A DNA stretch of 21,045 nucleotides from a virus: positions 1 to 21,045 of IMG/VR virus record IMGVR_UViG_3300027963_000393; one strand, written 5' to 3'. The position numbers and the translations under genes were made by a program. The notes below the pieces were generated by a model. The model worked only from the letters and a program-made list of their open reading frames with translations. It was not told where the DNA came from and ran no database searches. Numbering within the stretch: the stretch's first letter is position 1; every line of letters starts with the position of its first letter. Shown here in pieces: positions 3,146 through 17,810 of the stretch.

Positions 3146-4916
<1,771 letters not shown>

Positions 4917-4919
<3 letters not shown>

Positions 4920-4928: not shown

Positions 4929-5987
4929 ATGAGATTCCACGTAATAAGCCTGCCTCACACGCAGACAACTAAAGATTATGTCAACTGTGCCTATACTGAA
5001 AAGGTAAGGCGCTTTTGCATAATGATGAAGAGTTTAGGCCATACGGTCTATCTCTATGCTGGTGATCAGAACGAAGCACCAGTTGATGAGTTAATCACCT
5101 GCATCACTAAAGAACAGCAAGATGAAGCACTTGGTGATAAGCATTATACCGAAGCTGCATTTGATAATACTTTACCGCACTGGCAGATATTTAATCAGAA
5201 CGCAATTCACGAACTAGGTAAGCGACTACAGCATAAAGACTTTATCTGTCTTATTGGTGGTGCTTCACAGAAGCCTATCGCAGATTCTTACCCAGAGTAT
5301 ATGAGCGTAGAGTTTGGTGTTGGCTACGGCGGAGTATTTAGCAAGTACAGAGTCTTTGAGTCCTACGCTTGGATGCATAGCATCTATGCAATGTATAAGG
5401 ATCCGACTCTAGTAGATGGCAACTTCTACGATGCGGTAATCCCTGGTTACTTAGAACCAGAGATGTTCCCATTGCAGGAGAAGAAAGAAGATTACTACCT
5501 GTATGTAGGTCGTATGGTAGACCGCAAGGGCATCATCATTGCTCAACACGTCTGCAAAGAACTAGGCTTAAAACTTATCTTGGCAGGTCCTGGTAAACCC
5601 AAACTTGAATATGGTGAATGGGTAGGACCAGTAGGGCCAGAAGAACGAGCAAAGTTAATGGGTGGTGCTATTGCCCTATTTGCACCAACGCTATACATAG
5701 AACCTTTTGGCAATGTAGTTATCGAAGCACAAGCCTGTGGTACTCCAACGATTACTACAGACTGGGGAGCTTTCACAGAAACCAACCCACAAGGTGTTAC
5801 TGGATACCGTTGCAGAAATGCAATGGAATTTGCAGTAGCAACAGAATGGGTTAAGAAGTTAGATCCAGTTGCAATACATAAGAGAGCTGTAGCGTTGTAT
5901 TCATTAGATGCTATTGCACCACAATACGAACAATACTTTGCAAGACTGCTGACTCTATGGGGAGATGGCTGGTATGAAAGGAAATAA
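4929..5987 (+). CDS. Glycosyltransferase, GT4 family (352 aa)
   Basis: Transfers a sugar from an activated donor, probably a nucleotide sugar, to an acceptor. The GT-B C-terminal half is clear: YYLYVGRMVDRKGIIIA near residue 190, a LKLILAGPGKP strand, then EPFGNVVIE (E258 and E266) giving the EX7E signature of retaining GT4 enzymes, followed by EAQACGTPTITTDWGAFTE. The N-terminal half has a Rossmann-like start (MRFHVISLPHTQT) and MMKSLGHTVYLYAG. Length is normal for the family. It lies directly after the collagen-like fibre, so glycosylation of its Thr-rich triplets is a good hypothesis; cell-surface sugars or DNA bases are other possible acceptors. It lacks an SD site and may have its own promoter. 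Confidence 0.85.
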   Translation: MRFHVISLPHTQTTKDYVNCAYTEKVRRFCIMMKSLGHTVYLYAGDQNEAPVDELITCITKEQQDEALGDKHYTEAAFDNTLPHWQIFNQNAIHELGKRLQHKDFICLIGGASQKPIADSYPEYMSVEFGVGYGGVFSKYRVFESYAWMHSIYAMYKDPTLVDGNFYDAVIPGYLEPEMFPLQEKKEDYYLYVGRMVDRKGIIIAQHVCKELGLKLILAGPGKPKLEYGEWVGPVGPEERAKLMGGAIALFAPTLYIEPFGNVVIEAQACGTPTITTDWGAFTETNPQGVTGYRCRNAMEFAVATEWVKKLDPVAIHKRAVALYSLDAIAPQYEQYFARLLTLWGDGWYERK

Positions 5988-13907: not shown

Positions 13908-13951
13908 AGCCCTCACTCAGGAGAAATCCTGGGTGGGGGCTTATTTTTTAT
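13908..13951 (+). terminator. Strong rho-independent terminator of the late operon
   Basis: A 15-bp stem (13908-13922 with 13927-13941, two G-U pairs) closes a GAAA tetraloop (13923-13926, a stable GNRA loop) and is followed by TATTTTTTA. It ends + strand transcription after the lysis genes and just before the convergent minus-strand HNH gene. No T-run is present on the other side, so it should work mainly for + transcripts. Confidence 0.92.
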
Positions 13952-13953
13952 GC

Positions 13954-14307
13954 CTAAAATATGCCTGAGTTAGAGTCCCCACTCAAGTAGGTCTTCAGGC
14001 GGTGGCAGTTTGCACAGAGCGTCTGTAAGTTTGATGGGTCGTTGTTCCATCTATCCCCGTCAATGTGGTCCACGTCAAGCTGACTGATGTGGACTGGCTT
14101 GAAGTCACAGCGCTGGCAGTAATCTTTCTTATGGATTGCGTAGGGATATTGACTCTTAATGATGTTGCGTCTGTAAACCGTAAAGCATCTGAATCTACTG
14201 GTAGCTGTAGACATCCTTGAGTCCCTAAGTTTGATTCTAGTAGGCCCACAGACTGAGCAGATACCAGTCCTGGACTCTTCATCAATCTCCGAAAGTCTGT
14301 GCTTCAT
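13954..14307 (-). CDS. HNH endonuclease, minus strand (117 aa)
   Basis: I place the start at the ATG at 14307 (MKHRLSEIDEE); an ATG at 14343 would add 12 residues and overlap the upstream gene more. The N-terminal part has CSVCG and a later Cys. The nuclease core reads CQRCDF ... LDVDHIDGDRWNNDPSNLQ, TLCANCHRLKT, the classical HNH plus CxxC layout (DHIDG..NNDP.NLQ.LC..CH). It overlaps the upstream zinc-ribbon gene by 26 nt. This pair is the only minus-strand coding block and looks like a mobile insert between the late and early modules. Confidence 0.85.
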   Translation of the reverse strand: MKHRLSEIDEESRTGICSVCGPTRIKLRDSRMSTATSRFRCFTVYRRNIIKSQYPYAIHKKDYCQRCDFKPVHISQLDVDHIDGDRWNNDPSNLQTLCANCHRLKTYLSGDSNSGIF

Positions 14308-14515
14308 ACCTGTCAGGTTCACAAGGAACTCGTACCAAAGCACCGCAGGAAAAGCAGGTAGCGTCTAGGAAGTACCAAGATAGCTCGAAGTCATCAAAGG
14401 ACGCTGCAACGTTGAATACTTGGGAGCCACATATGCACACGTGGACTGGTCCTAAGTCCCGCAGATCGGCACCAGTGACCTGTGGTAGCCCACGTAGTGG
14501 GTTTCTGTGCTTCAT
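14282..14515 (-). CDS. Zinc-ribbon-like small protein, minus strand (77 aa)
   Basis: The ATG at 14515 is used because the longer frame upstream runs through an inverted-repeat region and shows no protein-like sequence. The protein has CICGSQVFNVAASFDDFELSWYFLDATCFSCGALV: a CxCG and a CxxCG pair separated by an aromatic strand region, a probable zinc ribbon. I recall similar CxCGS..F.V..SF.DYE...YF....C..CG proteins in actinophages, with unknown function. It is transcribed with the HNH gene on the minus strand. No clear SD site is present. Confidence 0.6.
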   Translation of the reverse strand: MKHRNPLRGLPQVTGADLRDLGPVHVCICGSQVFNVAASFDDFELSWYFLDATCFSCGALVRVPCEPDRYEAQTFGD

Positions 14516-14529
14516 TCTTGGCAGGGTTG

Positions 14530-14588
14530 GTAGACGGAGCCGGACCAGCAGTACGGTACTGTCCGTCTGCTGCGCCCCTAAAGGGCGC
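14530..14588. promoter_or_regulatory. Cluster of inverted repeats in the divergent region
   Basis: Three features are visible. GTAGACGGA (14530-14538) pairs with TCCGTCTGC (14562-14570) with one wobble. Nested inside is the near-perfect palindrome CAGTAC-G-GTACTG (14549-14561). Next to it GCGCCC-CTAAA-GGGCGC (14572-14588) forms a 6-bp stem. No T-run follows any of them. They sit between divergently transcribed genes, so they may be an operator pair or a structured RNA. The inverted repeats are seen; the function is unknown. Confidence 0.5.
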
Positions 14589-14597
14589 CCTGTCTGC

Positions 14598-14626
14598 TTA
14601 ACTCGCCTCACGGCTCGTAGTATACA
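14598..14626 (+). promoter_or_regulatory. Candidate sigma70-type promoter for the rightward early/middle operon
   Basis: TTAACT (14598-14603) and TATACA (14621-14626) are separated by 17 nt, each matching 4 of 6 consensus bases. The expected start of transcription near 14633 would lead into the proteasome-like gene and the downstream replication genes. The inverted repeats lie just upstream. On the minus strand the same place holds TATACT (14624-14619), which could serve the minus-strand pair, but I see no good -35 for it. Confidence 0.4.
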
Positions 14627-14665
14627 CATACCCATCTGAGTAATGTGTCTTACGACACGCAATGG

Positions 14666-14677
14666 TACGATAAGGCT
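14666..14677 (+). promoter_or_regulatory. Candidate leaderless -10 box for the Ntn-hydrolase gene
   Basis: TACGAT (14666-14671) is followed by exactly 6 nt and then ATG at 14678, with no well-placed SD site (an AAGG sits only 2 nt from the ATG). It fits the actinobacterial TANNNT-N6-8-start layout of leaderless genes. It is an alternative to the promoter at 14598-14626; both could act. Confidence 0.4.
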
Positions 14678-15232
14678 ATGACAACCTTAGTAGGTATTCA
14701 AGGTAAAGACTTTGTAGTTTTTGCAGCAGATAGTCAGATAACAGATGGCGACCAACGCATCATCTCTATCGAGACGCCCAAGATAATCTCGGTAGGTAAG
14801 TACCTGCTGGGCCTTACTGGTGACTCACGTCCAGGTGACATCCTTGCCTACTCGTGGAAGCCACCGCTATATCGTGGTGAAGATCCCGTTCGTTTTATGG
14901 GTAGCAAGATACTTCCTAGTATCTCAGCAGCTTTCAAAGAAGGTAACTACGAGATTGATAACAAGGAGATGAACTTCTCGTTCCTTATCTCATTCAACGC
15001 TAACCTGTTCTCCATTGGTGGCGACCTATCGTTTAACACATCTGAGCGTGGGCTGTTCTCGGCAGGCTCAGGTGGAAATTATGCTCTTGGGTACTTGTAT
15101 TCCTTGCCACTTAAGAATTACAATAAACTCATTACGGCAAGTGTGGTAGCAGAAGAGTCGGTCAGGATTGCATCCTTACTAGATATCAATACGCATCCAC
15201 CAATACAAGTAATCGGACAAGTGAGGGTATAA
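14678..15232 (+). CDS. Proteasome-beta/HslV-like Ntn hydrolase (184 aa)
   Basis: A threonine protease of the proteasome fold. After Met removal the protein begins TTLVGIQGKDFVVFAADSQ. With Thr as residue 1, the catalytic Thr1, Asp17 and Lys34 (equivalent to Lys33) are present, as are a later GSG segment (SAGSGGNYALGYL) and an Asp in LLDINTHPP near residue 168 that matches the conserved C-terminal Asp. A GTG at 14645 would add a 12-residue propeptide, but Met directly before Thr1 argues for the ATG at 14678, as in HslV. Length fits HslV or a beta subunit. No ATPase partner is seen. It may degrade host or phage proteins, or work with host factors; substrate unknown. Confidence 0.75.
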   Translation: MTTLVGIQGKDFVVFAADSQITDGDQRIISIETPKIISVGKYLLGLTGDSRPGDILAYSWKPPLYRGEDPVRFMGSKILPSISAAFKEGNYEIDNKEMNFSFLISFNANLFSIGGDLSFNTSERGLFSAGSGGNYALGYLYSLPLKNYNKLITASVVAEESVRIASLLDINTHPPIQVIGQVRV

Positions 15233-15340
15233 ATGAAAGAGATAATTGCACTTTGTTTAACCAGCTTTCTACTAGGTTTCGTTGCAGCATATGGCTTCGA
15301 TACTTGGTTGACCTGGAGAGATGACCGCAAATGGCGATAG
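15233..15340 (+). CDS. Tiny single-pass membrane protein (35 aa)
   Basis: ATG directly after the previous TAA, with GAGGG upstream. A hydrophobic stretch (about residues 4-21, IIALCLTSFLLGFVAAYG) is followed by an aromatic, charged tail (FDTWLTWRDDRKWR), giving a type of small membrane anchor. It overlaps the next gene by 10 nt. The sequence is a plausible real protein, but nothing is known about its role. Confidence 0.5.
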   Translation: MKEIIALCLTSFLLGFVAAYGFDTWLTWRDDRKWR

Positions 15341-16290
15341 CAGATCCAAAGGAATTACTGCTACACGTACTGCACGCCAAGGATGCTTCTCGTGACCGCA
15401 GTATGCAGACAGAGGTGGGTCCATCAGAGATAGGTGGCTGTCGTCGTAAGGTCTGGTACAGACTGAACGCACAGCCTCATACGAATGACAACCAATCTAA
15501 GTTGGCTGCCATTATGGGTACTGCCATACACGCAGCTATCGAAGATGCTATAGGTTCACTTGATCCTGAAGGTAAAGAATACTTAGTAGAAACTGAAGTT
15601 GCCTACGGTGATATGAAAGCACACGTAGATTTATTTGTACCTAGTACTGGCGCAGTCATTGACTGGAAGACTTCTAAGATTAAGAACCTTAGTTACTTCC
15701 CATCAAAGCAACAGCGTTGGCAGGTGCAGGTCTATGGTTACTTGCTATCTAAGAATGGCTATGAGGTCAAGACAGTTAACCTTGTAGCAATAGCACGTGA
15801 TGGTAACGAGAAGGATGTAAAGGTACATAGCGAGGCATACGATGAGGCCATAGCACTAGAGGCATTTGCTTGGTTGGCATCTGTAAGGGCTTCAGAGACA
15901 CTGCCAGAGCCTGAGAAGGATGAGTCCTTCTGTAAGGACTACTGCCAGTACTATGACGCATCCGGTGAGATGGGTTGTACTGGATTAAAAAAAGAACGTA
16001 TCGTCCTTAGTGAAGTAGTGATTGAGGACGAAGAAGTTGACAAGCACGCACTGCATTACTTACAGTTAGACACACAGATTAAAGAGCTGGAGAAAGAGAA
16101 AGATTCATTGAAGGCTAGCCTTGAAGGATCTACAGGCATCACTATGAGTGGTGTTGAAATCAGTTGGACAACAGTTAAAGGTCGTGAGACAGTTAATGCA
16201 AAAGAGGTTGAGAAACTTCTGGGGTTTGTTCCTAAATTAGTAGGCAATGAATCTGTAAGAATAAATATCAAACACAGTGGAGGAAAGTAA
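15331..16290 (+). CDS. PD-(D/E)XK nuclease, Cas4/RecB-like with Fe-S cysteines (319 aa)
   Basis: DNA exonuclease of the Cas4/AddB-like group, probably used in phage recombination or end processing. Seen: GPSEIGGCRRKVWY (C37), H67 in MGTAIHAAIED, D100 in AHVDLF, VIDWKTSK (D111-x-K113), and QVQVYGYLLSKNGY, which is the QxxxY box. A cluster C201, C205 and C216 (FCKDYCQYY ... GCTG) with C37 would hold a 4Fe-4S cluster. The C-terminal third is a charged helix (LDTQIKELEKEKDSL) plus a small beta domain. No CRISPR array or other cas gene is present, so an adaptation role is not supported. Confidence 0.85.
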   Translation: MAIADPKELLLHVLHAKDASRDRSMQTEVGPSEIGGCRRKVWYRLNAQPHTNDNQSKLAAIMGTAIHAAIEDAIGSLDPEGKEYLVETEVAYGDMKAHVDLFVPSTGAVIDWKTSKIKNLSYFPSKQQRWQVQVYGYLLSKNGYEVKTVNLVAIARDGNEKDVKVHSEAYDEAIALEAFAWLASVRASETLPEPEKDESFCKDYCQYYDASGEMGCTGLKKERIVLSEVVIEDEEVDKHALHYLQLDTQIKELEKEKDSLKASLEGSTGITMSGVEISWTTVKGRETVNAKEVEKLLGFVPKLVGNESVRINIKHSGGK

Positions 16291-16675: not shown

Positions 16676-16942
16676 ATGCGTTCGCCGAGGTTCTATGAGA
16701 ACCCAAGCTGCGCTCAAGTAGGAGGTGAATTTTGGTTTCCGGAAAGAACCGATGGTTCAATGAATACTGTAGAGATGGTGATGGCAAAATCTATTTGCCA
16801 TACCTGTCCACACAAAGCTGAGTGTGCAGAGTGGGGAATAAATAAAGAACAATTTGGTATCTGGGGTGGTCTAACACAGGCAGATCGTGTACCTATTCGG
16901 AAACAATTAAATATAATACTGAAGGGGGAAAACGTTGCTTAG
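16676..16942 (+). CDS. WhiB-family iron-sulfur transcription regulator (88 aa)
   Basis: Has the four WhiB cysteines: C12, then C41xxC44xxxxxC50 (CHTCPHKAEC), followed by the GIWGG turn (FGIWGGLT) and a DR..IR basic segment, in normal WhiB length. WhiB proteins are 4Fe-4S partners of the main sigma factor and alter host promoter use. Phage copies such as that of mycobacteriophage TM4 interfere with host WhiB function. It has no SD site, and TTCGAT lies 6 nt before the ATG, a weak match to a leaderless box. This gene is the best evidence that the host is an actinobacterium. Confidence 0.92.
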   Translation: MRSPRFYENPSCAQVGGEFWFPERTDGSMNTVEMVMAKSICHTCPHKAECAEWGINKEQFGIWGGLTQADRVPIRKQLNIILKGENVA

Positions 16943-17810
16943 CTTAGATAGAGCCTGGGGAACTGTGCTCACTAAAGCAACGCCACTTCCTGATGTATGG
17001 AGTGGGTTAGCAGCTAAGCAGATTAAGTTCCGTAGGGGACAGGTCTGTATGGTAGCTGCAGCCCCTAACGCTGGTAAGTCTATGTTCGCACTTATCTACG
17101 CAATTAAAGCAGGCGTACCAGCACTATTCTTTTCAGCAGATACTGATACGACTACGGTGATGATGCGAAGTGCAGCACACTTATCAGGTCATAATCAGGT
17201 CAACGTTGAACAGAACTTATCTAACGATAGCAACTACTACAATCACCACCTTAGTAAGTTGGGTCATATTAAATGGGTCTTTGATTCCAGTCCGTCACTC
17301 GATGATATCGAGTTGGAGATCAGAGCGTACGTGGAGTTATACGGAATTGCTCCAGAGTTAATCATCATAGATAACTTGATGAACGTGGCAGCAGAGACTG
17401 ATAATGAATGGGCAGGCTTACGTGCGATTATGATGGAGCTGCACGATATGGCACGTAAGACAGAAGCCTGTGTATTAGTCCTGCACCACGTCTCTGAGCA
17501 GTCAGAGTATGGCTCACCAACTAAGCCACCTGCCCGTCGTGCTATTCACGGCAAGGTAAGCCAGTTGCCAGCGTTGATACTAACCCTGGGTTATGATCCG
17601 TTGAACGCAGAGTTAAACATTGCAGCAGTAAAGAATAGGTTTGGGCCACACACGGCTGATGCTTCTGACTTTACATCGCTAATGGTTAACTACGGAGCTT
17701 GTCAGATATCAGATAGAAACGCCTTCGGTGCAATGCTAGGGCGGGATGCACGAGCAGGTTATACTGGGGACTACATCGTAGATGAATATGGAAATGAGAT
17801 AGAACAATGA
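16935..17810 (+). CDS. DnaB-type replicative helicase, RecA-like ATPase domain (291 aa)
   Basis: TTG start, GGGGGA upstream, overlapping the WhiB stop. Walker A is AAPNAGKS (residues 42-49), Walker B is ELIIIDN (about 141-147), with LHHVS later as a sensor-type motif and ARRAIHGKVSQLPALIL after it. This is the C-terminal ATPase domain of DnaB/gp4-like helicases without the usual N-terminal domain. Primase parts are encoded separately downstream (18867-19788). It should unwind DNA for phage replication; RadA-like ATPases are a less likely reading. Confidence 0.8.
   Translation: MLSLDRAWGTVLTKATPLPDVWSGLAAKQIKFRRGQVCMVAAAPNAGKSMFALIYAIKAGVPALFFSADTDTTTVMMRSAAHLSGHNQVNVEQNLSNDSNYYNHHLSKLGHIKWVFDSSPSLDDIELEIRAYVELYGIAPELIIIDNLMNVAAETDNEWAGLRAIMMELHDMARKTEACVLVLHHVSEQSEYGSPTKPPARRAIHGKVSQLPALILTLGYDPLNAELNIAAVKNRFGPHTADASDFTSLMVNYGACQISDRNAFGAMLGRDARAGYTGDYIVDEYGNEIEQ

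Follow-up and report, generated by a model that had tools for sequence, protein, structure and literature searches.

The window (the whole stretch of viral DNA analysed here, a complete IMG/VR record of 21,045 bases) carries a gene for a proteasome-fold threonine hydrolase (Table 1), as the initial annotation had proposed. With a probability of roughly 0.6, we read its product as a phage-encoded, self-compartmentalising threonine protease of the BPH/HslV branch that has no unfoldase of its own. The fold, the catalytic residues, the purifying selection, the absence of a partner and the synteny were computed; we infer the Met removal, the ring, the activity, the substrate and the timing. Phage proteasome homologues were already known (PHROG 1040; Fuchs, Alva, and Lupas, 2021), their function unexplained; the earlier remark that there is no well-studied phage example therefore holds for function, but not for the homologues themselves, which have been described (PMC8665760, phrog_1040 and several annotated phages) and catalogued, none with a known function. 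New here are a clade of actinophage homologues, the two places that the gene takes in their genomes, and the link of this clade to phages in culture. The clade is widespread in viral contigs and has a complete active site under strong selection; its sister clade includes two phages in culture, both from the very abundant ‘Ca. Nanopelagicales’, and the role of a viral proteasome subunit thereby becomes testable by experiment.

Fold, family and active site

Both profile searches and structure prediction bore out the assignment to the proteasome/HslV type. The window protein exceeded the cut-off of PF00227 (Pfam Proteasome; 30.4 bits vs. 22.4, E = 3.6e-7) and matched phrog_1040, ‘peptidase HslV family’, among the PHROG profiles (E = 3.1e-21). 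It stayed below the thresholds of the HslV equivalogs (TIGR03692, 30.1 vs. 157.75 bits; NF003964, 30.7 vs. 137), and the equivalog model of the bacterial 20S proteasome beta subunit (PrcB) gave no match to it at E up to 1; by score, the protein is neither HslV nor PrcB. An alpha-subunit partner for a PrcB-type assembly was not found by profile search, which gave one proteasome-like gene per genome. The AlphaFold2 model (built on an alignment of 49 sequences; pLDDT 92, pTM 0.89) has the four-layer alpha-beta-beta-alpha Ntn fold (Z 20.5 and rmsd 2.6 against 20S beta and BPH), with helices H1 (50-58), H2 (70-88), H3 (133-142), and H4 (151-168) and the expected strands; the presence of H1-H4 in the model is compatible with ring stacking. 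VIA-align gave Z of about 20 against the archaeal 20S beta subunit, BPH, and yeast beta5, over 168-173 residues at 2.6-2.7 A, and Foldseek placed BPH at the top of the PDB matches, with HslV next. The model of the E7-type protein (from the sister clade described below) likewise has a pLDDT of 92, and its best PDB matches are BPH, HslV, and 20S beta, with Z of about 20.

The complete catalytic set read earlier from the single sequence was recovered in the relatives. Across the 49 aligned sequences, with identity down to 30%, T2, D18, K35, and G48 never vary; these include Thr1 and Lys33, the residues on whose conservation in homologues the initial annotation had made its reading depend. The GSG segment (130-132) and D169 are invariant throughout the window's clade; in the E7 clade the segment reads GSG or GTG, and residue 169 is Asp, Asn, or Ser. 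Every one of the 117 genes read has Thr as its second codon, although their start codons vary (96 ATG, 8 ATC, 7 GTG, 3 TTG, and 3 ATA), so no propeptide is encoded; removal of Met would expose Thr1 in the window protein, the event that mass spectrometry showed for BPH (PMC5777263). Among nine window-clade genes the median dN/dS is 0.11, that is, the protease gene is under strong purifying selection.

Table 1. Features of the protease locus, in positions of the window.
Feature	Position	Strand	Basis or remark
Proteasome-like (BPH/HslV-like) threonine hydrolase, 184 aa including initiator Met	14678..15232	+	PF00227, phrog_1040, AF2 model, PDB matches, relatives
Thr1 codon (precursor residue 2), predicted catalytic nucleophile after Met removal	14681..14683	+	Thr in 117/117 genes
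Asp17 (precursor D18)	14729..14731	+	Invariant in 49-sequence alignment and tree set
Lys33 equivalent (precursor K35; 34 in mature numbering)	14780..14782	+	Invariant; aligns with BPH lysine
Oxyanion-hole Gly (G48 = proteasome Gly47)	14819..14821	+	Invariant in 49-sequence alignment
GSG segment, residues 130-132 (S131 = Ser129 equivalent)	15065..15073	+	Window clade conservation
Late Asp (D169 = proteasome Asp166)	15182..15184	+	Invariant in window clade
TANNNT -10 box TACGAT, TG upstream as in extended -10; leaderless-type promoter	14666..14671	+	6 nt before ATG
Palindrome GTGTCTTACGACAC, operator-like	14645..14658	+	Same place in most relatives
Intrinsic-terminator-like hairpin closing preceding late/lysis unit	13908..13941	+	
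RecE/Cas4-like exonuclease, next sizeable gene, fixed protease neighbour in clade	15331..16290	+	phrog_1674, E 8.3e-32
WhiB-like regulator, actinophage marker	16676..16942	+	phrog_472
DnaB-like helicase of the protease's rightward unit	16935..17810	+	phrog_243, E 1.2e-71

Among solved structures the protein is most like BPH (PDB 5ovs, 5ovt, and 5ovu; best Foldseek match, Z 20.5), with a full-length profile match to the C. metallidurans BPH (E = 4.7e-11); the Thr1, Asp17, Lys, Gly, Ser, and Asp are all present, and Met removal is predicted rather than a propeptide. It differs from BPH in sequence (about 20-24% identity), in being phage-borne, and in lacking the elongated acidic pore loop: its H1-H2 loop, SWKPPLYRGED, is short and not strongly acidic, with WKPP as the predicted pore loop. 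BPH forms tetradecamers and has no known unfoldase; the purified protein was inert on standard peptides and casein, though its Thr1 was reactive towards epoxomicin (PMC5777263). Lack of signal in a fluorogenic assay would therefore not disprove activity. With HslV (ClpQ) the window protein shares the fold, Thr1, Asp17, GSG, and a similar length, but it scores about 30 bits where the HslV cut-offs are 137 and 157.75, and no HslU was found in related phage contigs; in a Salmonella jumbo phage, HslV has been annotated without HslU (PMC7823757). Unlike PrcB, it has neither a propeptide nor an equivalog match.

Fuchs, Alva, and Lupas (2021) described phage-borne AAH and PPH groups. Neither AAA+ partners nor a function emerged for these, and AAH was reported from no phage specific to Actinobacteria (PMC8665760). 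Like their AAH, CPH, and PPH homologues, the window protein is phage-borne, HslV-like (group I), matches PHROG 1040, and has no AAA+ partner that we could find. Membership in PPH, whose proteins are about 140 residues long and lack helix H2 (PMC8665760), was rejected on length (184 aa) and on the presence of H2 at 70-88. In the tree, the window protein falls outside a clade (support 100/98) that includes homologues from Rhizobium, Sinorhizobium, and Streptomyces plasmids, which we call AAH-like by their distribution only; the window protein has TT/GSG/Asp169, and that clade mostly TC or TV, GCG, and Ser. Many branches of the tree are long, and the placement of the protein relative to BPH and HslV is unreliable; because of the long branches, and because the comparison with AAH goes by distribution and not by the published AAH/CPH alignments, we do not claim a new subfamily. 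A 181-aa proteasome homologue is encoded on Sinorhizobium americanum plasmid B (NZ_CP013109, 103799-104344) within a nif region, where nifQ stands on one side of it and an iron-sulfur assembly gene, followed by nifS, on the other.

Promoter and start of the protease gene

A terminator-like hairpin (13908-13941) ends the preceding unit, and the protease is therefore the first gene of the rightward unit, in agreement with the initial annotation; after it the unit contains, by PHROG match, the RecE/Cas4-like exonuclease, WhiB, the DnaB-like helicase, a primase, and a methyltransferase. Where the promoter directly precedes the protease gene, most genes have a TANNNT box 6-7 nt ahead of the ATG; across eight related contigs, just 2.6% of ATGs share this spacing. 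The TANNNT -10 motif has been mapped in mycobacteria (PMC3898074). Judging from this arrangement, the protease mRNA is probably leaderless. A sigma-70 promoter scan found none, and none was expected, since the promoter has no -35. We rejected a longer in-frame GTG start (14645), given the -10 box 6 nt before the ATG and the conserved Thr at codon 2. Just 5′ of the -10 box lies the GTGTCTTRCGACAC palindrome, kept across the clade in most relatives and present once in the window; it is likely an operator. Related genomes carry a GTGTC-GACACGC element 5′ of the protease; in contig G004 the element matched at one further place.

In a minority of relatives, for example at seven of the loci inspected, HNH genes or a small ORF are inserted between the conserved promoter and the protease, whose start there is ATC, ATA, or TTG. 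These non-AUG starts overlap the stop of the inserted ORF, and their recurrence in several arrangements looks unusual. We considered a fusion or an intein for these genes and ruled it out, the ten examined having the HNH gene or small ORF between the same promoter and the gene, overlapping the start. Two small ORFs flank the protease in the window: directly after it (15233-15340, plus strand) is a 35-aa single-pass membrane-like ORF (MKEIIALCLTSFLLGFVAAYGFDTWLTWRDDRKWR), in the place of which G004 has a different, 94-aa ORF; and at 14282-14662 (minus strand) is a small Cys-rich protein (CxC...CxxC) with no PHROG match and a weak relative in E7 (38% over 50 aa).

Relatives, host and the two genome positions

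Close relatives of the protease are encoded in at least 101 viral-contig stretches, and a wider scan raised the relatives to at least 593 such stretches. Named phages contribute 28 records, every one less than 60% identical, including Actinomycetia phage DSL-LC01, Arthrobacter phages Hum25 and Pitbull, Microbacterium phage Pumpernickel, and LanE43-AprE7 and LanE43-AprF5 (E7 and F5); similar proteins are also found in phages of many non-actinobacterial hosts. A scan of genome contigs gave one short match, in a Gammaproteobacteria MAG. E7 (OX376640) and F5 (OX376641) are ‘Ca. Planktophila’ isolates (PMC10202952) and the only two phages isolated so far on ‘Ca. Nanopelagicales’. Synteny between the window phage and E7 extends over structural as well as replication genes (capsid 44% and helicase 45% identity), which makes a Nanopelagicales host plausible at the level of sequence. 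That the window comes from an actinobacterial phage, as first read, is upheld by its WhiB gene and by the DnaB-like helicase, whose named relatives are almost only in actinophages; the best-scoring named relatives of the capsid are E7, F5, and Streptomyces phages, and Bacillus and Vibrio phages match too. The genomes look podovirus-like, relatives of Streptomyces phage Manuel (Beephvirinae). At the DNA level, the replication region matches named phages, among the matches listed, over only about 90 bases, in methyltransferase genes. The window also encodes a collagen-like GPTG-repeat protein (3480-4919), followed by a glycosyltransferase-like gene (4929-5987); collagen-like proteins and glycosyltransferases have likewise been reported for E7 and F5 (PMC10202952).

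Each of E7 and F5 has a 178-aa homologue of the same fold, in a genome syntenic throughout with that of the window phage, but at about 29% identity and in another place: theirs stands behind the portal gene with a Shine-Dalgarno-like site, whereas that of the window heads the replication operon. The two positions hold for the two clades at large. The exonuclease lies close 3′ of the protease in 145 of 146 window-type loci (median distance 107 nt; the loci of the two scans overlap), and the portal gene is directly 5′ of the protease in 78 of 80 E7-type loci, where the protease starts about 15-20 nt past the portal stop in those read individually. The gene is present in exactly one copy in each of eight related contigs, E7, F5, and the window. 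Prohead proteases usually lie behind the portal gene, and by position the E7-type protease agrees with them and the window-clade protease, in the replication operon, does not. With the single copy of the E7-type phages placed in the structural module, an essential early role cannot safely be assumed; the idea of host takeover, which the initial annotation had drawn from the early position, is weakened accordingly. A role compatible with late expression would fit both positions.

Possible roles of the protein

Profile searches for AAA+ partners covered PF00004, absent from 23 related contigs, and PF07724 (the HslU family), absent from 18; the contigs searched include G002 and G006, which have terminal repeats and are apparently complete. 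The related contigs thus encode no unfoldase of these two families. In the mechanism we favour, the leaderless mRNA would be translated and host methionine aminopeptidase would strip the Met, exposing Thr1 without a propeptide; Thr1 would act as the nucleophile, activated by the Lys and Asp, and copies of the protein would stack into a double homo-oligomeric ring like that of BPH and HslV, enclosing the active sites. As no phage unfoldase of these two families was found, such a ring may take small, unfolded, or specific substrates alone, independently of ATP, or may borrow a host ATPase. Its biological role we read from gene position only: the swap between the replication operon and the place beside the portal, with one copy per genome, fits a role in, or compatible with, the late part of infection, for instance the removal of scaffold, of unused virion proteins, or of one particular host protein, better than a strictly early one. 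Several points speak against the favoured reading: BPH, of all solved relatives the closest, was inert in standard peptide and casein assays (PMC5777263); the connectase shows that the same fold can be a monomeric ligase (PMC8665760); and the predicted pore loop WKPP is not the acidic loop of BPH.

An early protease for host takeover or counter-defence, one that would destroy certain host proteins and might use a host AAA+ ATPase to do so, is possible, though we hold it only tentatively: the gene is the first of its rightward unit, with a conserved promoter and palindrome ahead of it, and its homologues in Arthrobacter, Microbacterium, Pantoea, and Vibrio phages stand among early or metabolic genes, but its position in E7-type phages is in the late module, and a search for defence-related families found no match. 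The late position leads to the somewhat doubtful proposal of a virion-morphogenesis protease, that is, a proteasome-fold enzyme that would degrade scaffold or trim head or portal proteins as prohead proteases do. The place directly behind the portal in 78 of 80 E7-type loci, the single copy per genome, and the lack of any other protease among the scanned head-module proteins of G002 argue for it. Against it are the replication-operon position in the window clade, away from the portal; the early or nucleotide-metabolism genes among which most other phages' homologues sit; and the podovirus-like look of the genomes, which are related to Streptomyces phage Manuel (Beephvirinae), since phages of this group often lack a prohead protease. 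Doubtful to a like degree is the broader idea of a distinct proteasome subfamily in freshwater actinophages that would act on its own, with no unfoldase, during virion assembly or late in infection. It would be the proteasome-fold equivalent of ClpP-type prohead proteases, and its gene would have moved between the late structural and the replication module.

We regard as improbable a specialised Ntn hydrolase, either a monomeric, connectase-like protein ligase or a small-molecule amidase; the fold family does include the monomeric connectase (PMC8665760) and BPH showed no peptidase activity (PMC5777263), but the model has no connectase-type helical insertion and its H1-H4 are intact. There is very little to be expected of a poison or decoy beta subunit that would co-assemble with the host 20S proteasome, an assembly that some actinobacteria have and whose fold the window protein shares: the active site is complete and strongly selected, the bacterial 20S beta equivalog gives no match at E up to 1, a propeptide is lacking, and comparable proteins are found in phages that infect many hosts outside the actinobacteria. 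That the phage protein poisons the beta ring of its host thus looks unlikely, and the self-compartmentalising protease of the BPH/HslV branch is the reading we retain.

A different arrangement is seen in Aeromonas phage 2L372X (NC_048770), in which the consecutive genes gp210 and gp211 are both annotated ‘peptidase HslV family’; the two could possibly form a two-subunit phage proteasome.
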